Shown: piece by piece, positions 10,661 to 42,764 of the stretch
How the letters are laid out: each line of letters starts with the position of its first letter
Numbering within the stretch: position 1 is the stretch's first letter
NCBI RefSeq assembly: GCF_000014045.1
Contig: NC_008209.1
Span: 953,001 to 1,017,000, forward strand
DNA from: Roseobacter denitrificans OCh 114
GTDB taxonomy: Bacteria; Pseudomonadota; Alphaproteobacteria; Rhodobacterales; Rhodobacteraceae
Length of the DNA stretch: 64,000 nt
Direction: 5' to 3'
The notes under the pieces: model-generated
What the model saw: only the letters and a program-made list of their open reading frames with translations
Databases searched by the model: none
Told to the model about the DNA's origin: nothing
Made by a program: the position numbers and the translations under genes

Positions 10661-10675
10661 GGGTGATCGCCCCGC

Positions 10676-18116: not shown

Positions 18117-18356
18117 ATTTTTTGACCTGAAACCATGTCAGAGATCAAAAGCGTATCACGTTTTGCAACTTCAATGTAGGGCGTTGCCTTGGTGAGGGGG
18201 TCTCATATGCACAGTCCGGCGACGAAACCGGGGATTAGGCCGAAGATGTCTTGCCATAGTCGGTTTGATCCCCTAAAGAGCGATTTCTCGAACGCGGGAC
18301 CGGCCAAAGCGGCATGCCGAGTCGCGCTTAAACCGATCTGAGACAAGGAGACGGAA

Positions 18357-18557: not shown

Positions 18558-18569
18558 GGAGAGCCGAAG

Positions 18570-18935: not shown

Positions 18936-18960
18936 CGCTAGGGCATGATCAACAGTTCAA

Positions 18961-18989
18961 AGCCGCTCTCCCGGAGGGCGGCTTTTTTG
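18961..18989 (+). terminator. Rho-independent terminator of rpmI-rplT
   Basis: AAGCCGCTCTCCC with GGAGGGCGGCTTTTTT: a GC-rich stem with a run of six T, 25 bases after the rplT stop. Confidence 0.92.
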
Positions 18990-19359
18990 TTGGACGGCAA
19001 CATATTGCGCGCGTGTTTCATGACCTGTTCCAGCCCATCGCGGGATCATCCTGTGCAAATATGCATCGGCAAAACAGGTTCTGGTGGCCCGCGCAGCGAC
19101 GAACACAAAGCCTGTCGTCGCGCTGAAGCTGCGATGCACCCACCGTCGGCTTGTAAAGCAAAGCACTTGCCTTGATTTCATAAACAACGCTAAAGCATCG
19201 CCTGTGCGGCACGGGTCATTCAGCCGGGCTCCGGGTCATGCAAAGGCGCAAAAACTGCCTTTTGGCGCCCATCATCGCAGCGGTGGAAACCTGCGGGTCA
19301 CCGGTGACGATCGCAAAACGGCCAGCGCGGAAAGAGCCGCGGTTCGATAAAGGTGAAAA
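18990..19359. other. 370-base gap with no supported gene
   Basis: No frame shows a family-like protein or a convincing start with a ribosome site, and no tRNA or hairpin RNA is recognised. It probably holds the promoter for the YrbL-like gene at 19360. Confidence 0.6.
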
Positions 19360-27170: not shown

Positions 27171-29012
27171 ATGGCCGAACACTTTTTGACCAAGACGCGC
27201 ATTGATTTGAGCCGATGCATTGCGGCGGGCGATGCACCTGCCGTTGAGCAATATGAGGCATTCAATGCGCTGCTGATGGCCAAGGCCGGTCCGGATGTTG
27301 CCAAGCTGTTTGCCGAACCGCTGGTCAGCAAGGGCAATGATCAGGCCGCGTCGACGGTGTCATGGTATTGCGACCGGGCGGGGCAGGGCGTGCCCTTGTC
27401 AAAACTCGATACGGCGGAACAGAACGAGGTTGCAACGGCCCTGCGCGCGCGTCTGTCGACGTTAAAGGATCTGTTGGATGATGACGAAGCGGCGCCCTTG
27501 GTCGCCGCTGCGCTGCACATCGGCAGTGCGGGCGATATCTGGGCGGTAGGCGGTCATCCGGTCATTGTGAACTGGGGTTTGATGCCCGCAGAAGGGTCAG
27601 ACGCTGCAACCCGGTCAGTACATTACGCCCGCACGCTGGGTCCGTATCTGGCGATGGATGGCGCACCACCCCTGACGCAGCAGGAGCAGGAACAACGCAG
27701 GGGGGAAAAGATCGCGGCGGTTGCGGCGGCTTCGGCCATTGCGGGGGCGGCGGCGGGTACGGCAGCGACCGCTGGTACGGTGGATGCCACGGAGCCTGTC
27801 GCAAATGCAGCGCAAGGCACGACCGCCGGTGCAACCGCCACCGCAGGCGGGGCAACGGATGATCCCTCAGCACCTGTACCCGGGGAGCGCCCGGCGCGCG
27901 GGCGGGTGCCGTTGGTCGCCTGGGTGCCGCTGGTTCTGCTATTGCTGCTTTTCGGCGGGGCACTGGCCTGGCTGCTGGTGCCGGGCAACCGCATTTTTGC
28001 GGATGATGGTGTGCAGCCGGCGGTGACGGATGAAGACACTTTACGCGCTGCGCGCGAGATCAACCGCGCGCTGGAACAGCGGCTGGCTGATTTGAACGTG
28101 GCTCTCGAAGGCGCCGTGTGTCGGGCCGATGGCACCTTGCTGATGCCGGATGGGCTGACCATCGAAGGGCTGCTGCCTCCCGGTTTTGACGAAGGCACGC
28201 TGCGTGCGGGTGAGATCATCAAGGCAGACCGCACGCCGATCCTGCCGCCCGCCTCTGACCGGGTGATGATCCCTCCGGCGGATGGGGACATCACCGATAC
28301 GGCAACCTTGCTCAACCACATTGATGATCGCACGGCGATGGTTGTGGCGGTGTCCGATCAGGGCACGGCCACGGGGACGGGTTTTTTCGTGGGGCCGGAT
28401 CTGCTCGTGTCGAACTTCCATGTGGTCGAAGGGGCGGATGCGCAGAATATCCTTGTGGTCAGCAAGGCGATGGACGGGCCGAAACGCGTCGATGTGTTGA
28501 AATCGCTGGGTCCAGTGGCCGACGTGGGCGCGGATTTCGCGCTGCTGCGGGTGTTGGACGTGGACCAGCCGTTTTACACGCTGCGCCAGAGCGACCAGTC
28601 CATGCGGCTGCAATCGGTGATCGCGGCGGGCTACCCCGGTGATGTGTTGCGGATCAACAGCGATTTTCAGTCCCTCAGCAGCAGCAACAATTTTGATGTC
28701 CCCGATTTGATTGTAACGGACGGCTCGGTGAATTCGGAACAGTCGCTTTCGGACCGCGCGCATGCCGTGATCCATTCGGCACCGCTGTCGGGGGGCAATT
28801 CCGGCGGACCACTGGTTGATATGTGTGGCCGCGTGGTGGGTGTGAATACCTTCGTCTATCAGGGCGAGTTGCGGAACCTGAATTTTGCCCTTTCCATTGA
28901 TGATTTGCTGGAGTTTCTGGCCGACACACCCGCGGCCCCGACCATATCCAGCGAGGTTTGCGAGCCCTTTGTTGCCCGCCCTGCGCCTGTTTCTGTTTCG
29001 GCGGGACAGTAG
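27171..29012 (+). CDS. Membrane-anchored trypsin-like serine protease with Srf-type N-terminal domain
   Basis: 613 residues. Residues 1-170 form a cytosolic domain homologous to the start of the next gene (LFAEP, WYxxxxGQxVPL, the PVIVNW strand). An Ala/Gly/Thr-rich linker leads to one transmembrane helix (about 246-270), then a short helix ending in a Cys (about 295-316). The C-terminal periplasmic part is an S1 trypsin-like protease (residues about 385-600) with triad His417 (SNFHVVEG), Asp455 (GADFALLRV) and Ser544 (SGGNSGGPL). No PDZ domain, unlike DegP. It opens a nine-gene same-strand operon with SrfA-, SrfB- and SrfC-like proteins, so it is probably the system's processing enzyme or effector. 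Function inferred. Confidence 0.85.
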   Translation: MAEHFLTKTRIDLSRCIAAGDAPAVEQYEAFNALLMAKAGPDVAKLFAEPLVSKGNDQAASTVSWYCDRAGQGVPLSKLDTAEQNEVATALRARLSTLKDLLDDDEAAPLVAAALHIGSAGDIWAVGGHPVIVNWGLMPAEGSDAATRSVHYARTLGPYLAMDGAPPLTQQEQEQRRGEKIAAVAAASAIAGAAAGTAATAGTVDATEPVANAAQGTTAGATATAGGATDDPSAPVPGERPARGRVPLVAWVPLVLLLLLFGGALAWLLVPGNRIFADDGVQPAVTDEDTLRAAREINRALEQRLADLNVALEGAVCRADGTLLMPDGLTIEGLLPPGFDEGTLRAGEIIKADRTPILPPASDRVMIPPADGDITDTATLLNHIDDRTAMVVAVSDQGTATGTGFFVGPDLLVSNFHVVEGADAQNILVVSKAMDGPKRVDVLKSLGPVADVGADFALLRVLDVDQPFYTLRQSDQSMRLQSVIAAGYPGDVLRINSDFQSLSSSNNFDVPDLIVTDGSVNSEQSLSDRAHAVIHSAPLSGGNSGGPLVDMCGRVVGVNTFVYQGELRNLNFALSIDDLLEFLADTPAAPTISSEVCEPFVARPAPVSVSAGQ

Positions 29013-29024
29013 CGGGTTAGTGGT

Positions 29025-30314
29025 ATGAATGGATCCTTTCTGACCAACACCTCGACCGAAGGGTTGCAGCCGCTCGGCACCGCCCCGCAGCGGTCCTATG
29101 AACTTGTCAGCGACACGGTCCGCGACGCCTGTGGCGAGGCGGCAGCAGCGCTTTTCGCGGAGCCGGTGCCGACGCAGTATGGGGATCGGTTTGACTGGTA
29201 CGCCACGGTAGACGGGCAGGCGGTGCCGCTGGCCTCGCTTGAGGATCCGGAACCGGCGCGCGAGGTGCTCTCCGGGTTGGTGGCCAAGGTCAAGGATGTG
29301 GCTGATGAGCTGATGGCCTCAAAGCTGGCGGAAAAACAGCGCCTCGGTGAAGCGCTGGCCAATGCGCTCGAAATCCCGGACGAAGACGCGATTTTCGTCA
29401 TAGAGAGTGCGGATGGTGCGCCACCGCAGCCGGTTTTGGTGAACTGGGCGTGGAGCAAGGACGCACAGGTTGCGGTGCGCGGCGTGCTGACGGGCATGGA
29501 CACCCGCGCGCCTGCGCAGCGCCCGGGCTATGTGCCGCCTCCTGCGGCGGCTGCGGCGGTGCCTTTGGCATCGGGCGTGGGCGCGGCGGCTGTGGCCGGT
29601 GTCAGCGCCTTTTGGTGGTGGCTTGTCTGGCTCGGCTGGTTGCTGCTGGCGCTGCTGATTGCGGCGGTGATCTACCTGATGATCGAACCCTGCGCCTTGC
29701 GTATTTCATGGCTGCCGAACACCTGCGCGCAGGTCGAGGAAATCCCCGACACGCTCTATGAAGAACGTCTCCTGCTGGAGGATCAGATCACGCAGGTGCA
29801 AAAGGAAATCCATATCAAGGATCGCCTCTGCCAGCCTGATTTTGCCCTGCTGCCGATCCCGGACCCTGATGCGGTGGTGCCGCCCGAAACCGGCGTGCAG
29901 CCAAGCCTGCCGATTGATCCGGAAGTTGATGACCGTGCCGACCGGGCCGGTGCGCAGCGGGGGGATCTGTCTTTCACGCTGATCTGGGAAGGGTCCGACG
30001 ATCTGGATCTGCACACCACCTGCCCGGCGGGGGATACGTTGTTTTTCCTTGATAAGGCGGCGTGCAACGGGGTGATGGATCTGGACATGAACGGGTTTCA
30101 GGTCGTGCCCGACCCGGTGGAAAACACCTATTTCACCGATCCCTTGCCGGGTGATTACCGTGTGCGGGTGAACCTTTATCGCCAGCGCGATGGCGATGCG
30201 CCCCGCAGCTTCACGTTGCAGATCCGCGAAGGCGACCGGGTCACCACGCAAAAAGGAACGGTTTCGGTAGGGGCGGAAAACTGGCAGTATACCTACCGGT
30301 ACGGGGGAAAATGA
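29025..30314 (+). CDS. SrfA-like membrane protein with YfaP/DUF2135-like periplasmic domain
   Basis: 429 residues. N-terminal cytosolic domain (about 1-160) shares LFAEP, the DWYxxxDGQxVPL strand and PVLVNW with the protease before it; this pattern also recalls enterobacterial SrfA proteins. After a Pro/Ala-rich linker there is one transmembrane helix (about 196-220), a short coiled coil ending in Cys (LEDQITQVQKEIHIKDRLC), an acidic/Pro linker and a beta-rich C-terminus (SDDLDLHTTCPAGDTLFFLD, LPGDYRVRVNLYRQRDGD) that resembles YfaP/DUF2135 domains. Its stop overlaps the ATG of the SrfB gene (ATGA). SrfA assignment is by motif memory, so moderate. Confidence 0.65.
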   Translation: MNGSFLTNTSTEGLQPLGTAPQRSYELVSDTVRDACGEAAAALFAEPVPTQYGDRFDWYATVDGQAVPLASLEDPEPAREVLSGLVAKVKDVADELMASKLAEKQRLGEALANALEIPDEDAIFVIESADGAPPQPVLVNWAWSKDAQVAVRGVLTGMDTRAPAQRPGYVPPPAAAAAVPLASGVGAAAVAGVSAFWWWLVWLGWLLLALLIAAVIYLMIEPCALRISWLPNTCAQVEEIPDTLYEERLLLEDQITQVQKEIHIKDRLCQPDFALLPIPDPDAVVPPETGVQPSLPIDPEVDDRADRAGAQRGDLSFTLIWEGSDDLDLHTTCPAGDTLFFLDKAACNGVMDLDMNGFQVVPDPVENTYFTDPLPGDYRVRVNLYRQRDGDAPRSFTLQIREGDRVTTQKGTVSVGAENWQYTYRYGGK

Positions 30315-33300
30315 TGTTTGAAGAGAGTGTCGGTCGTTTAAAGCAACTGGTTGATTTCGGGGAAGAGATCACGCTTGTGCCCTATAGCGGGGTGCAGATG
30401 CTTGATTTCGGTTTTGATCTGGACGCGCTTGAGATCAAGGCCTCCAAATTTATTGAACGCGTGACCCGCGAGGAAGCGGGCGAGGTGGAACGCACGCTGA
30501 TCCCGCTCAGTGGCAATGACGAACGCGACCTGCCCATCCTTGAGGCAGCACTTGAAACCGATGATGCCTATTCGATCCGGCCCATCGCGGCGCTGGAGCC
30601 ATTCCTGGAAAAATGGGTGCCGGTGCCTGTGCTGCGGATGAAAAGCCAGCGCGGACCCAGCGGCGAAGAGCGTTCTGATCCCGGTCCCTCAAGCTGGGCA
30701 CGCATGCGGATTGTTGAACTTGAAACCCCCGATCCCGAAACGGGCCATACCCACCGCGTGCAACTCGCACTTGATACCAACCTGATGGCGGGTGGGCAGC
30801 CCTCGCACTACATCGCACCCGAAGTGGCGGATGCCGAAAAGCCGCGCGATTTCCGCCTTGTGTCGGAGCCTGCGCATATGGACTGGTTCCTGCGCCGCCT
30901 TGAGGAAGCCGAAGACGGCAGCCTGATTGATTTGCAGGTCTGGGTATCGGATTGGCTCAAGGAACTCTTCATGAGCTACAAGCGCGCGGCGCGTCCCGGG
31001 CGTACCGTGCTGGAAGAAAACCTGCCGCATCAGTTTGAGCACTGGGCGCGGTATCTGGCCTATCTCAACCTCGTGCAGCAGGCCGTGTCGCCGCCCAAGA
31101 TGCGGTTTGTGAATACCGTCGCGGACCGGGACGCGGTCACGCCGGTCGCGGTTGATCTGGTGCTCGACATCGGCAACAGCCGCACCTGCGGCATCCTGAT
31201 CGAGCAGTTCGCGGGCGAAAGCCGCGTTGATCTGGCGCGCTCCTTTCCGCTGGAAATCCGCGATCTGTCGCGCCCTGAATTCATGTATTCCGGCCTGTTC
31301 CAAAGCCGGGTGGAGTTTGCCGAACTGCGCTTTGGCGATGAACGCTTTGCCAGCCGGTCGGGGCGGCGCAACGGGTTTTTATGGCCTAGCTTTGTGCGTC
31401 TCGGCCCCGAAGCCGTTCGACTGGTGCAGGGAGAAGAAGGCACCGAAACGGTATCGGGTCTTTCCTCGCCCAAACGCTATTTGTGGGATGATGCGGCGGT
31501 CTCGCAGGACTGGCGGTTTCATGACCACATGGATGTCAACAACCTGCCCAAGGCGGTGCGCGCGGCCATGCGCCACCTGAATGAAGCAGGCGATGTCATC
31601 AAGCAGTTGCAAAAAGACATTGAGAGCGGTCTGCGCACCGCCGGGACCGCCAGCACCACGGCGGCGATCCGGCCCCGGTTTTCGCGCTCGTCGCTCTATG
31701 GGTTCATGCTGGCGGAGATCATTGCGCATGCGCTTATTCAGGTAAACGATCCTGCGTCACGGTCGCGCCGCGCGCAAAGCGATTTGCCGCGCAGGCTGAA
31801 CCGGATCATCCTCAGCCTGCCCACCGCGACCTCCATTCAGGAACAGGCGATCATGCGGTCCCGCACGGAAGGCGCATTGCAGCTTGTCTGGTCCATGCTG
31901 GGCATCACCGACAGCACCAAGAATTCGATTTCCGGCAAGCCCGAGTTGAAAATCGAATGGGACGAGGCCAGTTGCACGCAGCTTGTCTATCTTTACAGCG
32001 AGCTGACGCAGAAATTCGAAGGCCGCATTGACACCTTCCTGACGCTCAAAGGCAAGGAGCGCCAGCTTGAAGGCCAGAAGGAGGCGGTGCCGACGCTCAG
32101 GCTGGCCTGCGTCGATATTGGCGGCGGTACGACCGATCTGATGGTCACGACCTACCGGGGCGAGGCCAACCGCGTGCTGCACCCCGAACAGACCTTCCGC
32201 GAGGGGTTCCGGGTGGCGGGTGATGATCTGGTCCACCGGGTGGTCAGCGCCATCGTGATCCCGCGCCTGCAGGAAAGCATCGAAGCGGCGGGTGGTTCTT
32301 ATGTCGCGGAAAAGATGCGGGAACTCTTTGGCGGGGACCGTGGCGGTCAGGACCAACAGGCGGTGCAGCGGCGCCGCCAGTTTTCCGTGCGTGTGCTGGT
32401 GCCGCTGGCCGAGGCCATTCTGTCTGTTTCGGAAGCCTCCGAAGAATTTGACCGGATTGATCTGAACCCTGCCGAGGTGCTGGGCCTTGAGGTGCCCCCC
32501 GAGGATGCGGGCGAAGAAGAGCTGGAGGCGTTCACCCCGCTGGAAGTGCTCAGCTATCTTGAACGCGCAGCGGCGGAATGTGGCGCTGACAACTGGAGCC
32601 TTTCAGATATCGTGCTCAGCACGTCGCGCGAGGATGTGGATGCTATTTCGCGTGAAGTGTTCCAGAAGGTCCTCAGCAATATGTGCGAGGTCATTGACCA
32701 TCTGGGCTGTGATATCGTGCTGCTGACCGGGCGGCCATCGCGACTGCCGGCTGTCCGCTCGATTGTCGAGGAGATGATGGTCGTGCCACCGCACCGCCTG
32801 ATTTCGATGCATAAATACAAGACCGGGCGCTGGTATCCGTTCCGCGATCCCGTAACGCAACGCATCGGGGATCCGAAATCCACCGTTGCGGTGGGGGCCA
32901 TGCTGATTGCGCTGGCGGAAAGCCGCATTCCGAATTTCAAGGTCACGACCGAAGCGTTTCAGATGCGCTCCACCGCGCGGTTCATTGGCGAGATGGACCG
33001 CAACGGGCAAATCCTGCGCGAACGCGTGCTGTTTTCCGACATTGATCTGGATAAGAAGGGCAAGTCCGGCGATCAGACGGCGACGCTCAAGATGTTTTCG
33101 CCGGTTCATATCGGGTCACGCCAGCTTGATCTGGAGCGCTGGACGACGACGCCGCTGTTCCGGCTGGATTTCAACAACAGCAATGCACCGGGCGCGCAGA
33201 AACGGCCAACACCCTATCAGGTGACGTTGGAAAAGGATGAAGGCGACGATGATGAGGCGCAGACATCCGTGGCCAAGCTGCGGCGTGAAAGCCTGCGCGA

Positions 33301-33430
33301 GGCCTTCAAGATTGCCGAAGTGCTGGATGGGGAGGGCGATGAGATGAAGGCCAGCGAACTGGTTCTGAAACTGCAAACCCTCGGCTTTGACGATGACTAT
33401 TGGATCGATACCGGGGTCTACAGAATATGA
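30311..33430 (+). CDS. srfB: SrfB-family protein (actin/Hsp70-fold ATPase signatures)
   Basis: 1039 residues, matching the ~1000-residue SrfB family named from the SsrB-regulated Salmonella genes. It contains the nucleotide-binding elements of the actin/Hsp70 fold: phosphate loop 1 DIGNSRTCG (Asp286), phosphate loop 2 DIGGGTTDL (Asp602), and a possible adenosine motif LTGRPSRLPAV (about 805). No signal peptide or transmembrane segment, so cytosolic. In known clusters it sits beside SrfC. The activity of SrfB is not established; the ATPase role is inferred from the motifs. Translationally coupled to the SrfA-like gene upstream. Confidence 0.85.
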   Translation: MMFEESVGRLKQLVDFGEEITLVPYSGVQMLDFGFDLDALEIKASKFIERVTREEAGEVERTLIPLSGNDERDLPILEAALETDDAYSIRPIAALEPFLEKWVPVPVLRMKSQRGPSGEERSDPGPSSWARMRIVELETPDPETGHTHRVQLALDTNLMAGGQPSHYIAPEVADAEKPRDFRLVSEPAHMDWFLRRLEEAEDGSLIDLQVWVSDWLKELFMSYKRAARPGRTVLEENLPHQFEHWARYLAYLNLVQQAVSPPKMRFVNTVADRDAVTPVAVDLVLDIGNSRTCGILIEQFAGESRVDLARSFPLEIRDLSRPEFMYSGLFQSRVEFAELRFGDERFASRSGRRNGFLWPSFVRLGPEAVRLVQGEEGTETVSGLSSPKRYLWDDAAVSQDWRFHDHMDVNNLPKAVRAAMRHLNEAGDVIKQLQKDIESGLRTAGTASTTAAIRPRFSRSSLYGFMLAEIIAHALIQVNDPASRSRRAQSDLPRRLNRIILSLPTATSIQEQAIMRSRTEGALQLVWSMLGITDSTKNSISGKPELKIEWDEASCTQLVYLYSELTQKFEGRIDTFLTLKGKERQLEGQKEAVPTLRLACVDIGGGTTDLMVTTYRGEANRVLHPEQTFREGFRVAGDDLVHRVVSAIVIPRLQESIEAAGGSYVAEKMRELFGGDRGGQDQQAVQRRRQFSVRVLVPLAEAILSVSEASEEFDRIDLNPAEVLGLEVPPEDAGEEELEAFTPLEVLSYLERAAAECGADNWSLSDIVLSTSREDVDAISREVFQKVLSNMCEVIDHLGCDIVLLTGRPSRLPAVRSIVEEMMVVPPHRLISMHKYKTGRWYPFRDPVTQRIGDPKSTVAVGAMLIALAESRIPNFKVTTEAFQMRSTARFIGEMDRNGQILRERVLFSDIDLDKKGKSGDQTATLKMFSPVHIGSRQLDLERWTTTPLFRLDFNNSNAPGAQKRPTPYQVTLEKDEGDDDEAQTSVAKLRRESLREAFKIAEVLDGEGDEMKASELVLKLQTLGFDDDYWIDTGVYRI

Positions 33431-33460
33431 GAATGTGCAAGCTTGAAATGGTGCGGTGCG

Positions 33461-36160
33461 ATGTCTGAGAACAATATACTTGCAGAGCGCTGCGTAGAGG
33501 TGTCGCAACTGACACGCGACGCACTGGCCTGGGTCAACCACGCAGAAAACGCCGAAACTGTAGGGCCGCGGCACAAGAGCCTGACCAAGCTGCTGCGCAA
33601 GAGCGCGCGGCGCGCCGAACGGCTGGGCAAATCGGCCCGCACCAATATGTCGGTGAGCGTTTTCGGTCCCTCGCAGGCGGGTAAATCCTTTCTGGTGTCG
33701 GTGTTGGCGCGACCTTCTGACGGGCGGCTTACGGCGGATTTCAACGGCCCCGGCGGGCAACTTGATTACATCTCTCAGGTGAACCCGGCAGGGGATGGGG
33801 AATCCACCGGTCTGGTCACACGGTTCACGATGACCAAGGCCGCAACACCCGATGGATTTCCGATCCAGCTGAACCTGTTGTCCGAGGCCGATATCGCGCG
33901 CACGATCATCAACAGTTTTTACGAGGATGGCGATCAGTCCGAGACGCCGCCCGAACCCGAAGACCTCAAGGCGCATTTTGCTGCCCATGCAGGCAAGGCC
34001 GGGGCGGGTGAGGTGCCGGGCCTGTCGTTCGAAGAGGTCTATGAAATCGCCGAATACGTCGAAAACACATTCGGCAAGGTCGCCTATGCCAGCCATCTGC
34101 GCGGGTTCTGGGATGAGGCGGCGAGCCTTGCGCCCAATATGTCGATCAAGGACCGTGGCGATTTTCTGTCGATCCTCTGGGGTGGGTATCAGCCACTGAC
34201 GGACCTTTATGTCAAACTGTCCTCGGCCCTGACGCTGATCGACAACGCCGAAGAGGTCTACGCCCCGCTTGAGGCGCTGCAACCGCGCGAGACGTCGATC
34301 ATTGACGTCAACACGCTCGGCGGGCTCTTCGGGCCTGAAAACGAGGACACGCTGCCGATCCGCACGCCTTCGGGCAAAGTGGCGCAGATGAACCGCGCGG
34401 TGGTCTGTGCGCTTGCGGCCGAACTGGTCTTTCCGATGGCGGAGCAGCCGTCAGATTTCTTTGCCGAAACGGACCTGCTGGATTTTCCGGGGGCGCGCAA
34501 CCGCTTTGAATTGCCGCTGACCAAGACGCTGGAAAACCCCGAAGAGGGCGTGACAAATATGCTGTTGCGCGGCAAGGTCGCTTATCTCTTTGACCGCTAC
34601 GTGGCAAATCAGGAAATCACCTCCATGCTGCTCTGCGTGCCCGACAGCAATATGGACACGGTCAGCCTGCCGGGGCTGGTCGAAAACTGGATCTCCATGA
34701 CTCATGGGGCCACGCCGCAGGAACGGGCCAAGAACGACTGCATCCTGTTTTTTGTCATGACCAAGTTTGACAAACATCTGGGTGAAAGCGCGTCGGGCGG
34801 TTCTTCGACCGAACGCTTCGAGCGGCGGATGGATGCCTCCCTGCTCAAGGCGTTTGGCAAATTACGCGACAGTTGGGTGCATAAATGGACGCCCAGCCAG
34901 CCGTTCCAGAACTGCTACTGGCTGCGTAATCCGAACTATTTCGTCGAAGGTCTGATCAATTACAATGAGGATGAGACGGAAAAGGAAATCCGCGCGGAAA
35001 AACTGGATCGGGTGGCGGAGCTCAAGGAAGGGTGTCTGTCCACGGATGCGGTGCGCGCGCATTTCAAGGAGCCGGAAGTCGCTTGGGACGCGGCCCTGAC
35101 CCTGAATGATGGGGGTGTGGGCTATCTGACGCAGGAGTTGACGAAGGTTTGCAAGCCGGAAAGCAAGATGGGCCAAATCTCGGCCCAGTTGGACAAGATG
35201 ACCAACGACGTTCTGGGGGAATTGCGCGATCTCTATGTGTCTGACGATATCGAAACGCGGATCGAAGAAAAGCGCGAAGCTGCCGCGCAGATCATCGACT
35301 GCCTTGAGCTGACGCTGCAAAGTCACCGTTTCGGGGCCTTCATAAACGCGCTTTGTGTGGATCAGGACGCGATCGAGGACCGGATCAGCCGGGTGCCAAG
35401 CTCCATCCGGATCAGTCAGGCGGTGGGTTCTTCCGCGATGGAAAGCACATCCAGCGGCGGGGCTGCATCCCCGCCACGCCCCGGTGGCGCATCACGCCCC
35501 TCGCGCCCCGGAAGGCCAAACCGCCCGGGCAAACCGGCGCCCGCAGCCGCTGAGGCCGAGACCGATGTAACCGCCAAGACAGCGTCGCTGATCCGCACCA
35601 TGTCGTCAGAGGATTTTCAGGCCAACACCGCCATTGATATCTGGATCGAACATCTGAGCCAGTTGCGCGAGGATGCAGACCGCTTGGCGACCTTCAGCCT
35701 GACGCCTGAGGCGGCGGCAGATCTGGTGCGCGAACTGGTGCACGGCTTCCGGCGCACCGATGTTGCATCGGAGATGAAAACCCTGCTCAAGGCGATTGAC
35801 TACGGGCTGACTGTTGACAAACAGGCACCACCCGCCGCCATCGTCTGCGCCGAGACGATCAATAGTTTCGTACATTCCCTGGGTGCGGAAAAGCTGTCGG
35901 ACAAGGACCGACCGGTGATCGAATTGCAGGACGGCCACAACCGGATGGCATTTGAGGCGCGCCCGGCCTCCGATACGGCGTTTGATCTGCCGCAGGAACA
36001 ACGCGCTGCCGCCGAAGACTTCTGGACGGATTGGGTCTATATGCTGGAAGCGCTGTTTGTCGGAAACGCCAAAGACGGCGACGCGGGCGAAATCAACATC
36101 GAGCAGAACATGGCCATCGGGCGCGTGGTCAATGGGCTTGATGCTGAACAGGCCGCGTAA
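33461..36160 (+). CDS. srfC: SrfC-family protein (P-loop GTPase-like)
   Basis: 899 residues from the ATG at 33461 (a TTG at 33443 is possible but has no better ribosome site). Walker A GPSQAGKS at residues 69-76; LLDFPGARNR is a plausible DxxG G3 loop, and FFVMTKFDKH a TKxD G4-like motif, so a dynamin/translation-factor-like GTPase is likely. A Pro/Gly/Arg-rich stretch (about 655-690) links an N-terminal GTPase and helical region to a helical C-terminus. No signal peptide. Family known as SrfC (PF10139, putative bacterial virulence factor). It follows SrfB by 30 bases. Confidence 0.85.
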   Translation: MSENNILAERCVEVSQLTRDALAWVNHAENAETVGPRHKSLTKLLRKSARRAERLGKSARTNMSVSVFGPSQAGKSFLVSVLARPSDGRLTADFNGPGGQLDYISQVNPAGDGESTGLVTRFTMTKAATPDGFPIQLNLLSEADIARTIINSFYEDGDQSETPPEPEDLKAHFAAHAGKAGAGEVPGLSFEEVYEIAEYVENTFGKVAYASHLRGFWDEAASLAPNMSIKDRGDFLSILWGGYQPLTDLYVKLSSALTLIDNAEEVYAPLEALQPRETSIIDVNTLGGLFGPENEDTLPIRTPSGKVAQMNRAVVCALAAELVFPMAEQPSDFFAETDLLDFPGARNRFELPLTKTLENPEEGVTNMLLRGKVAYLFDRYVANQEITSMLLCVPDSNMDTVSLPGLVENWISMTHGATPQERAKNDCILFFVMTKFDKHLGESASGGSSTERFERRMDASLLKAFGKLRDSWVHKWTPSQPFQNCYWLRNPNYFVEGLINYNEDETEKEIRAEKLDRVAELKEGCLSTDAVRAHFKEPEVAWDAALTLNDGGVGYLTQELTKVCKPESKMGQISAQLDKMTNDVLGELRDLYVSDDIETRIEEKREAAAQIIDCLELTLQSHRFGAFINALCVDQDAIEDRISRVPSSIRISQAVGSSAMESTSSGGAASPPRPGGASRPSRPGRPNRPGKPAPAAAEAETDVTAKTASLIRTMSSEDFQANTAIDIWIEHLSQLREDADRLATFSLTPEAAADLVRELVHGFRRTDVASEMKTLLKAIDYGLTVDKQAPPAAIVCAETINSFVHSLGAEKLSDKDRPVIELQDGHNRMAFEARPASDTAFDLPQEQRAAAEDFWTDWVYMLEALFVGNAKDGDAGEINIEQNMAIGRVVNGLDAEQAA

Positions 36161-36189
36161 GGGTCGAAGATTGCGAGAGAGGTAAAGCG

Positions 36190-37197
36190 GTGATTTCAGT
36201 CAAACCCGATCCGGCGCACCCCCGTGGGGGCCATGCGGAGCTTTCGGTGCCAGAGGACAAACTGGTCGGCGAGACCGCGCAGGTTGCTGTTTTTGACAAT
36301 TATTCCGAACGCTTTCTGGGGGAATCCGGCTGGCAGCCGGTCAAGGTCATGTTCGGGCCCTATGCGGTGCGGCGCGAAGGGGGGCAGGCGCATCTGGTGA
36401 TCGGCCCCGAAATCGTGAACCAGATCGAGGAATACGCGAACGTCAAGCTGATGGTGGGTGATGCTGAACAGGATGTAAGCTGGCCAGATGATGTGGTTCC
36501 CGCACCGGGTGCTGCGAAAATCGGCGGCATCATGGGCACGAAAGCTGCCGAAGTCACAGCCGCAAGTGCGCTGAGCGCCAAAATGCCGGAACCGGAGCCT
36601 GAACCCGCCGAGGTGGACCCCACCCCGGAACCGACCCCGGCCCCAACGGCACAACCGGTCGAAACGCCTGCGCCCAAGGGCAAAGGCGGTCTGATCGCCG
36701 GTCTGGTGGTTGTGCTGCTTTTGGCGGCTGCTCTGGCCTATTGGCTGCTTGCGGCGGACGACACGCCTGTCACACCCGTGGCCGAACCGGTGATCGCGCC
36801 TGCGCCAGTGGCGGAGGCCAGTGACCCCTGCGCGGCAGATGCGCTGCGCGCTCTTGAGGGGTTCGGTGCGCAATCAGCAGCGCTGCGGGGGTGTGCGGGT
36901 ACGGCATCAGCCGATACGGCCCTTGGTCTGGTCGAGCGTGCGGCGGCAGCAGGGGACGCGGATGCCCTGGCGCTGTTCGGCACGGTCTATGACGGTGAAG
37001 CGGTGGATGCGGTGATCGAGGATCAGATTGGTCTGACCTTCGGGGATGAACCCGCAACGGCGGCGGAGTATTATGCACGTGCTGTCGCGGCAGGATCGGC
37101 CGAGGCGAGCGAAAAGCTGGCTGCCTTGTGCACACGGATGGCCGATATGACAGACACATTGGTGCAGGGCGCCGTCACCGATTATTGTGGCAATTAG
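36190..37197 (+). CDS. Single-pass membrane protein with Pro-rich linker and Sel1-like periplasmic tail
   Basis: 335 residues from a GTG preceded by GAGAGG. N-terminal ~110 residues: a small cytosolic beta domain without recognised family. Then a Pro/Glu/Thr-rich linker (PEPEPEPAEVDPTPEPTP), one transmembrane helix (about 178-198) and a periplasmic C-terminus with Cys pairs and helices (ADALALFGTVYDGEAVD, AAEYYARAVAAGSAEASEKLAAL) resembling a Sel1 repeat. The layout matches the two N-terminal genes of the operon (cytosolic domain, linker, helix, periplasmic module), suggesting an adaptor between the cytosolic SrfB/SrfC and the periplasm. Its last codons overlap the leader of the vWA gene. Confidence 0.7.
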   Translation: MISVKPDPAHPRGGHAELSVPEDKLVGETAQVAVFDNYSERFLGESGWQPVKVMFGPYAVRREGGQAHLVIGPEIVNQIEEYANVKLMVGDAEQDVSWPDDVVPAPGAAKIGGIMGTKAAEVTAASALSAKMPEPEPEPAEVDPTPEPTPAPTAQPVETPAPKGKGGLIAGLVVVLLLAAALAYWLLAADDTPVTPVAEPVIAPAPVAEASDPCAADALRALEGFGAQSAALRGCAGTASADTALGLVERAAAAGDADALALFGTVYDGEAVDAVIEDQIGLTFGDEPATAAEYYARAVAAGSAEASEKLAALCTRMADMTDTLVQGAVTDYCGN

Positions 37198-37207
37198 GGA
37201 GATGGGT

Positions 37208-39115
37208 ATGCGCATGCGGTTGATGGTGATGGTCATGGCAGCCCTGTCTTTCTGGGCCTCTGCGCTTGCGGCTCAACCCTTGCTGATGGAGGGCACCAAT
37301 ACGGTGTTTCAGCGCGTGCTGACCCGCCCCGCCGCCACCCTGCACAGTGCCGTTGATGGCGCCGTGATCGAACATATCCCCGCGTTTCAGCCGTTTTACG
37401 TCTTTGCCGATCAGGGCGCATGGAAACAGATCGGACCGTCCATTTCGAGGGAGCCGACCGGATGGGTGAAAACGGACCAGACCGTTGAGTGGAAACAGAA
37501 TATCGTCGGTGCCTTTACGAATGCCGCCGGGCGGGAGCGCCAGCTGGTGTTTCAGAGCGAAGAGGATTTGCGCTGGCTGTTGAACCACGAAGCCTTGCCG
37601 CAGGTGCAGGAGCGGTTGCTGGCCGAGGCCTCGGCGGGGATATCGCAGGGCAACAACGGTGTTGTCTCTGTTGAGCCGGAAGAGTTCGTCAACATCCGCG
37701 AAGACCTCTATGTGATGCCGATCCTCGATTTTGTCGAAGACCTGCATCCGCTCAACTACGAGGATATTCTGTTGATGGAGGTGGCCTCTGTCCCGCTCAA
37801 GGCGGAGAGTGGCGTGCAAAACAACGCGGATCAGGGCAATGCGGCCTTTGACGTCGGGATCGTCTTTGTGTTCGACACCACCCAGTCGATGGAGACCTAT
37901 ATCGCGCGCACGCAGAAAGTCCTGCAAAACACGGTTCAGCAGATCGCAGGGACCGAGATTGGCAAGCTGGTGAACTTTGGCGCCATCGGGTTTCGCGACA
38001 ACACGGATGCGGTGCCCGAACTGGAATACCGCACCAAGGTCCTTGCGGATATCAAACGGCGCGATGACCAGTCCGAAGTGTTGAACGCGATTGCCAACAC
38101 ACGGGTGGCCATCGCCAATTCGCCCGGTTTCAACGAAGACAGTCTGGCGGGTGTCGAGGATGCGATTGACCTGATTGACTGGCAGCAAGAGGGATCGGGC
38201 GATCCGATTGATGCACGCTATATCATTCTGGTCACGGACGCCGGGCCGAAAGACCCGCGTGATCCCAATGCACGCTCGCAGATCGGGGTTGAGGAGTTGC
38301 AAGCCGATGCAGAGGGCAAGAACATCGTCACGATGACGCTGCACCTCAAAACGCCGACCGGGGGCGAGGCAAACCATGCCTATGCCGAAAGCCGCTACCG
38401 TGCGCTGTCGACCTTTGCGGGTCGTCAGTTCTATTTCCCCATCGAGGGCGGATCAGAGGAAGCGTTCGAGGGTGTCGCAACCCGGCTGGTCACGGCCATC
38501 ACCGATCACGTGCGCACCGCGCGCGGCGAAACATCAATCCTGAGCGAGGACGAGGCCGGCGAAGATCTGGTGGCCTTGGGCCGCGCCATGCGCCTGGCCT
38601 ATCTGGGCTCACAACGCGGCACGCAGGCCCCGGATGTGATCCGCGGGTGGGTCAGTGACAAGGCGGTGGAAGCGCCGCAATCGCTCGCTGTGGAGCCGCG
38701 CTTGCTGATCACCAAGAATGAGATGGCGACAATGGCGGAACTGCTGGACAACCTGATCCGTCTGGGGGAGCAAAGCCAGGGTGGCGATGATGCGATGAAC
38801 TTCTTTACGCAGGTGCGGGGCGTGATTGCGGATATGGCAACCAACCCGGACCGGCGGCTGAACACGCAAGCCGACACGCTGGGCGGGGCGTTGGAATACC
38901 TTGAGCAACTGCCCTATCGCAGCCAGCTTTTGCAAATGACCGAAGACCGCTGGGCGCAAAGTGCCATGCTGCGCCGGTCCATCATCGACGGGATGCGCCA
39001 GAAGCTGACGCAATACCGCAAGTGGCTGTTTGACCCGCAGGTCTGGACCGCGCTGCACGACGGGGCCGATGATGGGGAGCTGGTCTTTGCCATGCCCTTT
39101 GACGTTTTGCCCTGA
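37208..39115 (+). CDS. Secreted SH3-like/von Willebrand factor A protein
   Basis: 635 residues from the ATG at 37208 (AGGGAG upstream; an in-frame GTG at 37187 and an ATG at 37202 are alternatives). Signal peptide ending ALAAQP. Residues about 25-90 look like a bacterial SH3 domain. A vWA domain spans about 220-430: the metal-site motif is VFDTTQSME (DxTxS rather than the usual DxSxS), followed by GAIGFRDNTD and LVTDAGPKDP. The remaining ~200 residues are helical. vWA domains bind proteins through a metal ion. Fifth to sixth in the Srf-like operon; likely the periplasmic ligand-binding part. Start partly uncertain. Confidence 0.82.
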   Translation: MRMRLMVMVMAALSFWASALAAQPLLMEGTNTVFQRVLTRPAATLHSAVDGAVIEHIPAFQPFYVFADQGAWKQIGPSISREPTGWVKTDQTVEWKQNIVGAFTNAAGRERQLVFQSEEDLRWLLNHEALPQVQERLLAEASAGISQGNNGVVSVEPEEFVNIREDLYVMPILDFVEDLHPLNYEDILLMEVASVPLKAESGVQNNADQGNAAFDVGIVFVFDTTQSMETYIARTQKVLQNTVQQIAGTEIGKLVNFGAIGFRDNTDAVPELEYRTKVLADIKRRDDQSEVLNAIANTRVAIANSPGFNEDSLAGVEDAIDLIDWQQEGSGDPIDARYIILVTDAGPKDPRDPNARSQIGVEELQADAEGKNIVTMTLHLKTPTGGEANHAYAESRYRALSTFAGRQFYFPIEGGSEEAFEGVATRLVTAITDHVRTARGETSILSEDEAGEDLVALGRAMRLAYLGSQRGTQAPDVIRGWVSDKAVEAPQSLAVEPRLLITKNEMATMAELLDNLIRLGEQSQGGDDAMNFFTQVRGVIADMATNPDRRLNTQADTLGGALEYLEQLPYRSQLLQMTEDRWAQSAMLRRSIIDGMRQKLTQYRKWLFDPQVWTALHDGADDGELVFAMPFDVLP

Positions 39116-39124
39116 GGCGCGGCG

Positions 39125-39904
39125 ATGGCCTATTCGCTCGCAATTGACGATCTGACGGTGACGCTTGGCGATGCAGAACGCCGCTTTACGCTGCAAGCGG
39201 GGCAGTGGTCGATTGCGGCGGGGGAGGTCATTGGGCTGACCGGACCATCGGGCACCGGCAAGACGCTGCTGCTGGAACTGCTTGGCATGTTACGCGCGCC
39301 CGATCGCGGCAGCTATATCGCCACGCCACTGGCAGGCACCGCTGGCACGCGGCAGGAGTTTCACAGCTTTTGGCAGGACGCGAATGCAATGGCGCTGTGT
39401 GCCGGGGCGCGTGCGGGGTTCTTTGGGTTTGTGCCACAGGCGGGCGGGCTATTGCCGTTTCTGACCGTCACCGAGAACGTGGAAATCACGCAGCGGATCG
39501 CGCAGCGTCCTGACGAAAGCTGGCTCAAGGCGCTGTTGGGTGAATTGGGTCTGAGCCAGATCGCGCATTTGCGCCCCGGTGCCTTGTCCATCGGTCAACG
39601 CCAGCGGGTGGCGATTGCGCGCGCGCTGGCCCATCGCCCGTTTTGCGTGATCGCGGATGAGCCGACCGCAGCGCTCGATCCGGAAAATGCACAAGTCGCC
39701 ATGGGCCTGTTGATCGAGGCCGCGCGCGCCGGGGGCACGGCGACCCTGTTGTCGAGCCACGATTACCCGACGCTGGAAAAGTTCGAGATGCGGCGCATGA
39801 GGTTGCAGATCACCTCGGCACCGCATGACCCGGATGTGGTCAGCACCCTCGTGGCCATGAACACACAAGGCGCGACATCGCCATCTGACCGGGTAGACGT
39901 CTGA
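39125..39904 (+). CDS. ABC transporter ATP-binding protein (MacB/LolD-type)
   Basis: 259 residues. Walker A GPSGTGKT, Q-loop FVPQAGGLLPFLTV, signature LSIGQRQRVAIARAL, Walker B CVIADEPTAALD and the H-loop LSSHD. LolD/MacB-like ATPase that would power mechanotransmission by the FtsX-like permease next to it rather than pump a substrate through the membrane. Its stop overlaps the permease ATG (TGATG). Part of the Srf-like operon. Confidence 0.93.
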   Translation: MAYSLAIDDLTVTLGDAERRFTLQAGQWSIAAGEVIGLTGPSGTGKTLLLELLGMLRAPDRGSYIATPLAGTAGTRQEFHSFWQDANAMALCAGARAGFFGFVPQAGGLLPFLTVTENVEITQRIAQRPDESWLKALLGELGLSQIAHLRPGALSIGQRQRVAIARALAHRPFCVIADEPTAALDPENAQVAMGLLIEAARAGGTATLLSSHDYPTLEKFEMRRMRLQITSAPHDPDVVSTLVAMNTQGATSPSDRVDV

Positions 39905-41100
39905 TGCTGATCCTGCGTCTTGCTCTGCGTGATCTGTTTTTCCAGAAGGTGCATCTGATCTGCAACATCGCGGTGCTGGCCGGGGTTCTGGTGCCGCTTC
40001 TGGTGTTATTCGGTGTCAAAAACGGTGTCTACAACGCGCTGATCGGGGAGTTGCTGAGCAACCCGAGGTCCGTGCAGATCGACACCTCCGGCAATGCCAC
40101 GTTTTCCACAGCGGACGCCGAAACAGTTCGGGGCTGGCCCGAGGCCGGATTTGTGACCCTGAAAACGCGCAGCCAGTTCGATTTCGTGAATGTACGGCTG
40201 GAGGGCGGGCGGCAAAAACGCGATGCGATCCTGATCCCCAGTGGCGCAGGCGATCCCAACCTGCCAGAAGGTCTGGCGCTGGATGCAGGTGCTGCCGTGA
40301 TCAGCGCGCAACTGGCCGATCAGCTTGAGATCAGTGCCGGGGACCGCATTGATGTCATCACACAGGCAGAGGACCGCCCGCGGCAACTGCGTATCCAGCT
40401 GGACGTGGTGGCGGTATTGCCGGCTGAACGCGCCTCCGGTCGCGCCGTGCTGGCGCGGATCGACGTTCTTGATCTGGTCGAGGCGTTTTACGACGCCTAT
40501 GCCCTGCCGGAGTACGGCATCACGCAGGGCAAGCCACTGTCTGATCGCGCGGCGGTTTTCGAGGGCATGCGCGTCTACGCCGTTGGTCTGCAAGAACTTG
40601 CGCCCCTGCAAAACCGGATTGAAAGTGAATTCGGCATCCGCACCGAAGCGCGCACTGCCCAGGTGCAGGGTGTCCTGAACCTTGGGCGCAACCTCAACCT
40701 TGCGCTTTTGCTGACCGCATCGGTTGCCAGTCTGGGACTGGCCGCAGCGCTGGTGTTTGGCTTTTGGGGCGAAGTGCAGCGCAAGCGGCAGGTTCTGGCG
40801 TCACTTGCGCTGATGGGGCTGGGTGGGCAACGGCTGTGGCTGTTTCCAATGATACAGGCGCTGGTGTCTTCTGCGCTGGCTTTGGTGGTCTCCTTTGCCT
40901 TGCTGGGCCTTGCCGCATTGGTGGCAGAGCAGATGTTCGATACCGGTCTGGCCGCAGGCGGGCTGGTGCAGATAACGACGGGGCAGGTCATGGTGATTGT
41001 GCTCGCAGTCAGCGTGTTCGTCATCGCCTCATCACTGTTTGCAGCGCGTGCGGTTCTGCGCATTGATCCGGCAACGGTGCTGAGAGAGGGGGCAACATGA
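39904..41100 (+). CDS. ABC transporter permease (FtsX/MacB/LolC-type)
   Basis: 398 residues. One N-terminal transmembrane helix, a ~200-residue periplasmic domain (about 60-250), then three C-terminal helices, ending RIDPATVLREGAT: the FtsX-fold topology with the cytoplasmic ATPase-coupling tail RxxPxxxLR. It partners the ATPase encoded just upstream. Type VII ABC proteins of this sort drive lipoprotein release, toxin export or cell-wall hydrolase activation; the exact substrate here is unknown. ATGA overlap with the next gene. Confidence 0.92.
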   Translation: MLILRLALRDLFFQKVHLICNIAVLAGVLVPLLVLFGVKNGVYNALIGELLSNPRSVQIDTSGNATFSTADAETVRGWPEAGFVTLKTRSQFDFVNVRLEGGRQKRDAILIPSGAGDPNLPEGLALDAGAAVISAQLADQLEISAGDRIDVITQAEDRPRQLRIQLDVVAVLPAERASGRAVLARIDVLDLVEAFYDAYALPEYGITQGKPLSDRAAVFEGMRVYAVGLQELAPLQNRIESEFGIRTEARTAQVQGVLNLGRNLNLALLLTASVASLGLAAALVFGFWGEVQRKRQVLASLALMGLGGQRLWLFPMIQALVSSALALVVSFALLGLAALVAEQMFDTGLAAGGLVQITTGQVMVIVLAVSVFVIASSLFAARAVLRIDPATVLREGAT

Positions 41101-42656
41101 AACATGTGATGGGTCTGTTGATGCTCTTGCTGAGCGCGGGGGCATCCGTTGGACAGGAAACGGACAGCGCGACATGGGATGCAGAGTTGGTTGATCCGGC
41201 CGGGGGGGCGGATTTGATCCTGCCGTTGCCCTGTGGCGGTGGCATGGCATTTCAGCGGGTCGCGGTGCCGGTCGATGTGGCAGATCCGATTGATGATCGG
41301 CCGTTTCGCATGGGCCAGTCGCAGGAATCCACCGGCTTTTCAGATTACCTGACCCCGGCGTTCCTGCGCGGCGCGTTCTATACGCAGGAGGGGTCGTATT
41401 ACTATATCGCGCGCTATGAGATGAACGTCGCGCAATACCGCGCCCTGACGGGGGCGTGCGATGCGCCCTTTACCCGCAAGGATCGTTTTGCCCAAGGCGA
41501 TCTGAGCTGGTTCGAGGCTGTCAACCTGACCCGCCTGATGACGGAATGGATTTTGCAGAACGCAGCCGACAGCCTGCCTGCGCAGGGTACGCGCAAGGGT
41601 TTCGTGCGGCTGCCAACTGAGGTTGAATGGGAATATGCAACGCGGGGTGGGGCAAAGGTGGATCCGACGCTGTTCCCGGGTCGGCGGTTTTTTGAGGACG
41701 GCGCATTGTCTGACTATGCCCATTTTCAGGCCGCAGGTCAGGGGCGTGGCAAGTTGCGCCCCGTCGGGCTGCGTGCGCCAAATCCCGTGGGGCTGTTTGA
41801 TGTCTATGGCAATGCCGAAGAGCTGATGCTGGAGCCCTTTCGTCTGAATGCGGTGGGCCGTCAGCATGGGCAAGCGGGCGGTGTTGTGACACGCGGCGGC
41901 TCGATTGATACAACGCCAGAGAACATCTATTCCGCACAGCGGCGCGAATATCCGATGTTCAACCCGCGTTCGGGCATGGCGCAAAGCGGCAGTTTCTTTG
42001 GTCTGCGCCCGGTGATCGGCGCGCATATCGTGACGGATGCGGATTATGATGCGATCCGCAATGGTTGGCTCGCGCGGGTGGAAACGGGTGAGACGTCGGA
42101 AAGTGCCGAACCCCTGACAGCGCTTGCCGCCTTGCTCGAAGAAGAGATCGACCCACGTCGCAAACAGGCGTTGAGCGATCTGCAACTGAGCTTCCGACTG
42201 GCCCGCGAGGCGGCGGAGACATCGACGCGGCAGGCGGCGAAATCCACCCTGATCAGCGGGGCGGCATTTGTGGAAACCCTTGTGGAGGACGCGCGGGCGA
42301 TCCAGCAGCTTGATTTGCAATTGCGCGCGCTGCGCGATCAGGCCCGCGTGGCTGTCGGCACCCCGCAGCACCCGCAATTGATGGTCGCTTTTCGAAACAC
42401 TCTGGAACGTCTGGGTCAGTTGCGCGAAGGGCAGGCGACCTATCTGCTGTCCTATCGGGCCGCTCTTGAAACGCTTACCAATGATGTGGAGGGTGCGACG
42501 CTGGATACCGCCTATCAGACCCTGTCGCAGGACCTGATCGAGGCCGAACAGGTCCCGTTTCTTGAGATGCTGCGCCAGTTCTGGCGCGATCTGGAGGCAT
42601 ATCGCGAACAGCCTGACATGAGCCAACAGGATTTGCTGGCGCTGGCGGTACGCTAA
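41097..42656 (+). CDS. Secreted FGE/SUMF1-fold protein with helical C-terminus
   Basis: 519 residues. Signal peptide (MGLLMLLLSAGASVGQ). Residues about 35-310 follow the formylglycine-generating-enzyme fold: FRMGQSQEST, YYIARYEMNVAQYRALTG, LSWFEAVNLTRLM, VRLPTEVEWEYATRGG, NPVGLFDVYGNAEELM and GGVVTRGGSIDT. The usual VWEW and catalytic cysteines are missing; the only Cys are in LPCGGG and TGACD, so it is probably a non-enzymatic binding version. The last ~190 residues are coiled-coil-like helices. Ends the nine-gene Srf-like operon. A repeat element starts seven bases after the stop. Confidence 0.85.
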   Translation: MKHVMGLLMLLLSAGASVGQETDSATWDAELVDPAGGADLILPLPCGGGMAFQRVAVPVDVADPIDDRPFRMGQSQESTGFSDYLTPAFLRGAFYTQEGSYYYIARYEMNVAQYRALTGACDAPFTRKDRFAQGDLSWFEAVNLTRLMTEWILQNAADSLPAQGTRKGFVRLPTEVEWEYATRGGAKVDPTLFPGRRFFEDGALSDYAHFQAAGQGRGKLRPVGLRAPNPVGLFDVYGNAEELMLEPFRLNAVGRQHGQAGGVVTRGGSIDTTPENIYSAQRREYPMFNPRSGMAQSGSFFGLRPVIGAHIVTDADYDAIRNGWLARVETGETSESAEPLTALAALLEEEIDPRRKQALSDLQLSFRLAREAAETSTRQAAKSTLISGAAFVETLVEDARAIQQLDLQLRALRDQARVAVGTPQHPQLMVAFRNTLERLGQLREGQATYLLSYRAALETLTNDVEGATLDTAYQTLSQDLIEAEQVPFLEMLRQFWRDLEAYREQPDMSQQDLLALAVR

Positions 42657-42662: not shown

Positions 42663-42764
42663 AAGCGTCATGCGAAAAATCTGACCCACGTAATGCTGCC
42701 TGAAATCAAGGGTTTCAACGTGTTGCGTGATACTTGGTTTTTCAGGTATTTCGCCAGACGCCTT
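42663..42764 (+). repeat. Dispersed palindromic intergenic repeat, copy 2
   Basis: AAGCGTCATGCGAAAAATC... to CGCCAGACGCC. About 102 bases. Sits between the stop of the FGE-fold gene and the stop of the convergent gene; its right edge overlaps the latter's stop codon (42763-42765). Confidence 0.9.

Follow-up and report, generated by a model that had tools for sequence, protein, structure and literature searches.

A srfABC operon of Roseobacter denitrificans with a sensor module related to PpkA/TagTSR

Both Pfam and published papers label srfABC a virulence factor, and much of the work considered here concerns enterobacteria, where most sampled loci have no sensor and several have broken GTPase motifs. 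What does SrfABC do? A longer form of the locus lies at positions 27171-42656 of a 64,000-nucleotide stretch of Roseobacter denitrificans OCh 114 (NC_008209.1, positions 953,001 to 1,017,000; ‘the window’ in what follows), in a 4.33 Mb genome with a completeness score of 100%. Its genes, g1 to g9, encode two SrfA-type adaptors, SrfB (g3), SrfC (g4), a single-pass protein (g5) and a set of vWA, ABC, permease and FGE-fold proteins. This full-length system suggests a possible role for SrfABC and where to study it, and makes the question testable.

We read the operon as an envelope-spanning stress machine, in which a damage sensor of the PpkA/TagQRST kind would drive membrane remodelling by Hsp70-like and dynamin-like proteins; we give this reading a probability of roughly 0.55. 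The anatomy is well supported, and the function we infer. An earlier note, made from the sequence of the window alone, had inferred a single envelope-spanning machine for sensing, proteolysis and export or lipoprotein handling, and had put it forward as a candidate for an undescribed system. As a whole that interpretation is partly supported.

Homology of g6 to g9 to a type VI secretion sensor

All nine open reading frames (ORFs) are open on the plus strand, and they either overlap (by 4 bases at 30311, 1 at 39904, 4 at 41097 and 11 between g5 and g6) or lie at most 29 bases apart, which confirms the same-strand array and the overlaps of the earlier note. Domains were called by Pfam and NCBIfam scans and transmembrane (TM) segments by hydropathy. 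The adjacent genes for SrfB (PF07520) and SrfC (PF10139) both score over cut-off, as do Trypsin_2, ABC_tran and FGE; the note's vWA and SrfA N-domain calls fall below it. Pfam finds no Pkinase domain among the nine proteins.

Profiles built from the window genes were run over all fetched loci. Six comparison loci of the type VI secretion system (T6SS) type come from SrfB-free genomes of an evenly drawn phylum set, all of one family, f44, and none of them is P. aeruginosa itself; TssC is present in all six genomes. The g6 vWA profile aligns over 1-610 of 610 to the C-terminal portion of each of six PpkA-type proteins, which are 990-1164 residues long (E 7e-178 to 2e-180), and Pfam finds a kinase domain in both of those scanned (two of the six). 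The g7 profile matches the TagT-position ATPases of the six loci (E 2e-71 to 2e-73), the g8 profile aligns over 1-396 of 396 to the six TagS-position permeases, and the g9 profile matches the TagR-position proteins in one piece over 85-498 of 499 (E 1e-81 to 1e-84). With every ORF scored, the order PpkA C-terminal part, TagT, TagS, TagR is that of g6 to g9 in 6/6 loci; SrfB, SrfC and the N-terminal domain of g5 (g5N) have no match in the six 20 kb stretches. One locus, L141, also has as neighbours the genes for a TagQ equivalog (507 bits against a cut-off of 300), a PP2C phosphatase and IcmF/TssM, and is a PpkA-TagT-TagS-TagR-TagQ arrangement.

As tested through these six loci, g6 to g9 are like the PpkA-TagTSR(-TagQ) threonine phosphorylation pathway of the P. 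aeruginosa H1-T6SS in both homology and order. The window differs in having no kinase, no TssC match and no match to the TagQ model, in having g5 in the kinase slot, and in its cytosolic neighbours, SrfB and SrfC. According to the excerpts of papers cited here and below by PMC number, T6SS assembly in P. aeruginosa whose outer membrane has been damaged mechanically or chemically is ascribed to TagQRST-PpkA and is lost in tagQ and ppkA mutants (PMC11881912); TagQ and TagR are required for TssK assembly, which TagS and TagT promote (PMC6657622).

The earlier note had taken g7 and g8 for a MacB/LolCDE-like pair serving export or lipoprotein handling. An ABC ATPase and an FtsX-type permease are present, and DevA and LolD profiles match g7 below cut-off. 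Against such a machine, the LolD model reaches 108 bits on g7 (cut-off 308) and LolCE 21 on g8 (cut-off 362), and g8 matches TagS over its full length, with scores well clear of those of other permeases (in the phylum draw, at least 170 against at most 51 bits). A Lol/MacB exporter was rejected on this score gap. The pair is TagT/TagS-like instead and, like the FGE gene, goes with the PpkA-TagTSR sensor; an export or lipoprotein-handling machine is very doubtful.

The note's inactive FGE fold is reasonable for g9, since its only cysteines, 46 and 121, both lie outside the aligned FGE core (136-283); an active FGE enzyme was rejected for want of a Cys in that core. We take TagR to be SUMF1-like. 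In g6, D230, S234 and D351 are invariant in 11 sequences and are presumably the metal ion-dependent adhesion site (MIDAS) residues of the vWA domain; the label SH3, which the earlier note gave to g6, is kept as an assumption. The protein is 98% identical to one of Roseobacter litoralis. Among the 120 g6 homologues listed, three (649-655 residues) are named ‘serine/threonine-protein kinase PpkA’ and have no precomputed kinase domain; these names are likely a misannotation through partial homology.

Recurrence of the unit and its partners

SrfB exceeds its cut-off in 21/398 evenly drawn genomes of the phylum and in 25/394 genomes of the window's family, the window's own being in both sets. Neighbourhoods were fetched for 36 of the 45 other matches, plus at least 25 named loci from a SrfB-profile scan of GTDB species genomes. 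The count covers 61 SrfB loci, with the window in and L074 out (SrfB below cut-off). Of these, 52 are assessable, with 9.2 kb or more of sequence after SrfB, the remainder being L055, L060, L064, L069, L076, L087, L089, L101 and L104. The sample is weighted to the window's family (19 of the 52 besides the window), and the named genomes may overlap with the others.

The vWA, ABC, permease and FGE genes stand beside srfBC at 33/52 loci, including L049, whose FGE gene lies upstream of the cluster; three loci are partial (L100, L106, L107) and 16 are without the set. Enterobacterial-type loci make up 11 of these 16, with 7 named and 4 from family f49. All nine gene families occur at 18/19 assessable family loci besides the window, the exception, L067, having no detectable SrfA-type genes. 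The long form is also found in Pseudomonas, Vreelandella, Terasakiella, Arboricoccus, Tistlia and Rhodopila, and in Methylococcus with FGE not detected.

Within the family the permease profile (E up to 1e-20) matches 33/394 genomes: 25/25 with SrfB and 8/369 without. For the phylum draw the figure is 15/398 (at least 170 bits; next best 51), made up of 8/21 with SrfB and 7/377 without. Fisher tests of the association give 6e-33 and 7e-8, respectively, uncorrected for relatedness. Distance correlations among the gene families are 0.905-0.985 over 32 of the 33 loci that have all six families (the near-identical L073 is left out) and 0.902-0.976 over the 12 outside the family, with 0/2000 permutations as high; lacking a species-tree control, they are compatible with co-selection and with common descent alike. 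Tight co-occurrence and synteny bear out the single system of the earlier note. That note had counted SrfB and SrfC standing without the other genes in most genomes as contrary to one system. Here the outcome is mixed: 13 of the 21 SrfB-positive phylum genomes do lack a full-length permease, but 12 of the 13 are in family f49 alone, which also includes a long-form genome (G296). An unrooted vWA tree (50 rows, several long branches) groups the six kinase-type proteins of the T6SS loci as a single clade; the Srf label needs 7 changes, 4 of them forced by supported branches, and the tree leaves the direction of partner change unsaid.

Of the eight family genomes with the permease and without SrfB, two have kinase-type loci, four have loci of other types, one has a decayed srf locus, and one shows a contig fragment that includes g5. 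The decayed locus (L158 in G502, 5982-15165) has SrfA-N, trypsin pieces and a SrfC C-terminus on one ORF and no SrfB match; the sensor genes remain alongside, with the permease split over two ORFs. L155, L157, L161 and L162 are further module types without SrfB or kinase matches. A trypsin-like protein lies near L155 (there with a Pfam peptidoglycan-binding domain), L157 and L161, and a TIR-domain protein also near L157. In G014, the seventh SrfB-free genome of the phylum draw with the permease, the locus L144 has a stand-alone vWA-ABC-permease-FGE set with a Gly-zipper gene and a permease insert of about 200 residues; that genome has no SrfB or TssC match, and the vWA protein no kinase match.

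The patchy distribution (SrfB in 25/394 family genomes) would suit a cell-wide defence or conflict system, whose sensor reads injury by phage or competitors and whose SrfB and SrfC delay lysis or kill the cell. Conflict systems with a GTPase and Hsp70 exist (PMC7159879), DynA delays phage lysis (PMC8844932), and the SrfB-free related sensor locus L157 has its TIR protein nearby. Against this, a PADLOC scan of all nine proteins except g7, on which a known anti-phage system was rejected, matches nothing but the g1 protease domain, and Pfam shows no toxin-like cytosolic effector among the nine. The published systems couple a GTPase to Hsp70, with vWA-based systems elsewhere in the paper, as here; their Hsp70 theme is mainly actinobacterial and firmicute, and a literature search counts no mention of SrfB or SrfC in PMC7159879. 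We consider defence unlikely, though the best placed of the alternatives.

Might the operon regulate a T6SS post-translationally, as PpkA/TagQRST does? The homology of g6 to g9 to part of PpkA and to TagTSR speaks for it, as may TssC in 15/25 SrfB-positive family genomes. A PpkA kinase query, however, matches just 1/61 srf loci (L094, Desulfovibrio sp. An276), and 10/25 SrfB-positive family genomes have no TssC match, 8 of these being at least 90% complete; the window's own genome (G000) is among the 10. T6SS regulation as the sole role was rejected on such genomes, and the reading, already weakened, is the most improbable we weigh. Genomes that have no TssC can also carry this sensor known from T6SS, next to a predicted dynamin and a predicted Hsp70. 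At L094 both output types stand side by side. Two loci of the window's family, L156 (G446) and L159 (G561), have the vWA-TagTSR module beside separate Ser/Thr kinases with no TssC match in the genome; L159 also has a PppA-like phosphatase, an FHA-vWA protein and a trypsin-like protein.

Divergent from the operon is the gene for u1, a possible TagQ-position partner whose homologues, present at 16/19 of the assessable family loci, either follow FGE or precede g1. Its glycine-rich stretch we take, by eye, to be Gly-zipper-like. Proteins similar to the L141 TagQ follow FGE in eight srf loci outside the family (L075, L077, L080, L085, L086, L090, L099 and L103); the TagQ model (NF041250), run on six of the eight, matches five, all below cut-off. 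On seven TagQ-position proteins of other srf loci it gives six matches below cut-off (17-138 against 300 bits) and none for L099.

Predicted folds of SrfB and SrfC, and the adaptors

PDB sequence searches with the SrfB, vWA and SrfC profiles yielded nothing useful, so the folds of SrfB and SrfC are taken from structure prediction. The SrfB model has a nucleotide-binding domain (279-875) with a predicted Hsp70 fold and a beta domain predicted to be placed like the substrate-binding beta domain of Hsp70. Asp286 and Asp602, the nucleotide-loop residues picked out by the earlier note, are invariant among 16 aligned sequences. For SrfC the AF2 model (pLDDT 84) matches SynDLP, BDLP and mitofusin structures, and we predict a dynamin-like GTPase. 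Under the G-motif conventions that we assume, it has G1 GPSQAGKS, G3 DFPG and G4 TKFD; this P-loop is at 69-76 from ATG 33461, where the note had put it, and at 75-82 from the TTG start. SrfC is like the bacterial dynamin-like proteins SynDLP, BDLP and IniA in predicted fold, and like these and DynA in G motifs. It is unlike all four in belonging to a separate sequence family (PF10139) and in having an Hsp70-like protein and a sensor encoded alongside. Among the matches listed from the open-licence PMC literature, none was found that connects this SrfC with dynamin or this SrfB with Hsp70; the two papers holding both ‘srf’ and ‘dynamin’ concern other genes, judged by their titles.

SrfC G1 and G3 are intact at 34/34 loci with vWA and permease, and G1 is lost at 7 of the other 27 loci (Fisher 0.002, a value that ignores relatedness and counts cut loci among the 27). 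All 7 are enterobacterial-type short loci, and since the figure rests on related enterobacteria the loss may represent few events. The srfABC of Salmonella and other enterobacteria is like the window in the SrfA-SrfB-SrfC order and families; at the 11 sampled short loci of this type g5 to g9 are missing as a unit, and the P-loop is broken in 7/11 SrfC.

SrfA-type proteins have a common N-domain and hydrophobic segment followed by divergent periplasmic domains: trypsin in g1, a DUF2135-like domain in g2, an FLxGxW-type stretch in many, vWA in L086 and L088, and subtilase in L100. FLxGxW serves here as an assumed domain label. In g1 NF040486 matches over 35-219 (E 1e-8) and Trypsin_2 over cut-off (E 1e-19); H417, D455 and S544, located by motif position, are presumably the catalytic triad. 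In g2 the matches to NF040486 (E 2e-17) and DUF2135 (E 0.005) are both below cut-off. A SrfA homologue search gave mostly close relatives, with no precomputed Pfam domain and no further periplasmic domain among the matches listed (120 of 181). The subtilase-bearing adaptor of L100, at 16580-19012 of a Bacteroidota-type metagenome-assembled genome (MAG; Acetofilamentum), is accompanied by two vWA-profile matches and four SrfA-N genes, and L104, from a Deltaproteobacteria MAG, has five SrfA-N and two SrfC-like genes at a single locus.

Pfam and NCBIfam give nothing at a meaningful score for g5. Where a single ORF holds both g5N and the C-terminal domain, g5C, a hydrophobic segment lies between the two (29/29 such g5 proteins), and the periplasmic repeats we take, by eye, to be Sel1-like. 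The gene directly before vWA is kinase-TM-g5C at L156 and g5N-TM-g5C at the srf loci; g5 would hold the transducer slot.

A further possibility is that SrfABC are exported effectors or toxins released under control of the Tag module. PpkA has been suggested to trigger export of SrfC in host-associated Deltaproteobacteria (PMC3608642), and SrfABC is reported as a toxin in Xenorhabdus, with PMC6950479 also counted in favour. On the other hand, SrfB and SrfC are free of hydrophobic segments in a hydropathy scan, no TssC match occurs in the genome, the predicted folds are those of a dynamin and an Hsp70, and in g1 and g2 a hydrophobic segment separates the N-domain from what follows. We hold export of SrfABC to be improbable.

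Proposed mechanism and neighbouring genes

The envelope-spanning layout of the earlier note is supported: NTPases in the cytosol, adaptors with a single membrane pass, and a protease and sensor module in the periplasm. In the stress machine that we favour, a periplasmic sensor made of the g6 vWA and g9 FGE proteins, the TagST-like g7-g8 and a peptidoglycan-binding partner would detect a breach of the envelope. No fused Ser/Thr kinase or T6SS weapon would be activated; the signal would pass through the single-pass g5 and the SrfA-type g1 and g2 to the two cytosolic NTPases. SrfC might then assemble on the inner membrane and remodel or reseal it, with SrfB loading, regulating or disassembling SrfC, and the periplasmic tails of the SrfA proteins (here a protease) might give local outputs such as proteolysis. 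With a periplasmic damage sensor known from bacterial ‘tit-for-tat’ weapons, cells may in this way answer envelope damage by membrane remodelling instead of weapon firing. In favour we count the recurrence of the unit, the homology of the sensor, the SrfB-positive genomes with no TssC match, the kinase-TM-g5C layout of L156, the predicted folds and the intact SrfC motifs at loci with vWA and permease; further, that Salmonella srfABC is inhibited through RcsF and activated by PmrAB (PMC6543913, a review), and that a srfC mutant swarms poorly and swims normally, srf mutants being affected in swarming only (PMC4219756).

Several points weigh against the stress machine. Every step between the sensor and SrfB/SrfC is one that we infer. 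No Pfam Hsp70 model matches SrfB and no Pfam dynamin model matches SrfC, the only matches at E up to 0.1 being PF07520 and PF10139, and the Foldseek TM-scores of SrfC are low, about 0.2 of the query. SrfC G4 is missing at 5/34 long loci and reads TQxD in two of the other 29. The SrfA model NF040486 scores 63.6 and 35.1 bits in the window against a cut-off of 150, which is N-domain similarity only, and the TagQ model has no match to u1. At L094 (21026-23117) a PpkA-type kinase and PppA-like genes lie within 10 kb of srfBC, and the 15/25 SrfB-positive family genomes with TssC count here too. The short, non-enterobacterial-type loci L070, L083 and L084 have an intact SrfC P-loop and g5 with no sensor genes nearby; sensor loss is therefore not always paired with GTPase loss.

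More tentatively, the periplasmic PpkA/TagQRST module could be a general bacterial wound sensor to which different outputs can be coupled (a kinase with T6SS, a kinase by itself, SrfB/SrfC and others). The Srf output would then be an Hsp70-controlled dynamin that reseals the inner membrane at the wound, a prokaryotic counterpart of eukaryotic plasma-membrane repair, and the ‘virulence factor’ srfABC of Salmonella a reduced remnant. We think this extension possible, with the odds against it.

To call the system undescribed was too strong, since the linkage of srfABC to tag/ppkA-type genes is already in print. A ten-gene srf-tag neighbourhood is reported in host-associated Deltaproteobacteria, with T6SS machinery in only one of them (PMC3608642), and T6SS post-translational control genes lie near srfABC in Xenorhabdus stockiae (PMC6950479). 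In the excerpted text the former treats ppkA as a threonine kinase and calls srfABC function unclear, and the latter names T6SS control genes only; the folds, kinase loss and adaptor swapping go beyond these accounts as excerpted. The operon has also been called implicated in surfactin production (PMC3946378), a statement that we take to be a mix-up with Bacillus srf.

Table 1. Genes of the operon and its flanks, in window coordinates
Feature	Position	Strand	Support
u1: secreted, glycine-rich stretch and PG_binding_1 domain; divergent from operon	25448..26773	-	PG_binding_1 E 5e-9
g1: SrfA-family cytosolic N-domain, TM (242-273), periplasmic trypsin-like protease	27171..29012	+	
g2: SrfA-family cytosolic N-domain, TM (193-228), periplasmic DUF2135-like domain	29025..30314	+	
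g3 SrfB: predicted Hsp70-like ATPase with extra N-terminal domain	30311..33430	+	PF07520 1243 bits
g4 SrfC: predicted dynamin-like GTPase	33461..36160	+	PF10139 1095 bits; ORF also open from TTG 33443
g5: cytosolic g5N domain, TM (163-191), periplasmic repeat-like domain	36190..37197	+	
g6: secreted vWA protein, counterpart of PpkA periplasmic half without kinase	37187..39115	+	vWA below cut-off
g7: TagT-like ABC ATPase	39125..39904	+	ABC_tran E 2e-22
g8: TagS-like FtsX/LolC-type permease, 4 hydrophobic segments	39904..41100	+	LolCE (weak) the sole Pfam/NCBIfam match
g9: TagR-like secreted FGE-fold protein	41097..42656	+	FGE-sulfatase E 4e-18
Secreted-looking protein, paralogue of next product; clade-specific companion	42763..43659	-	homologues in G649, G602, G431, G576
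Paralogue of preceding product	43656..44549	-	
Secreted-looking stand-alone SrfA C-terminal domain	44690..45346	+	NF040486 positions 307-421, E 4e-10, below cut-off

The nine genes fill the extent given by the earlier note, and the system reaches past it at both ends, with the peptidoglycan-binding gene on one side and genes to 45346 downstream (Table 1). The first protein downstream has no match in Pfam, NCBIfam or PADLOC; homologues of this paralogue pair sit after the sensor genes in four related genomes (G649, G602, G431 and G576). The gene for the stand-alone SrfA C-terminal domain is conserved in the same four.

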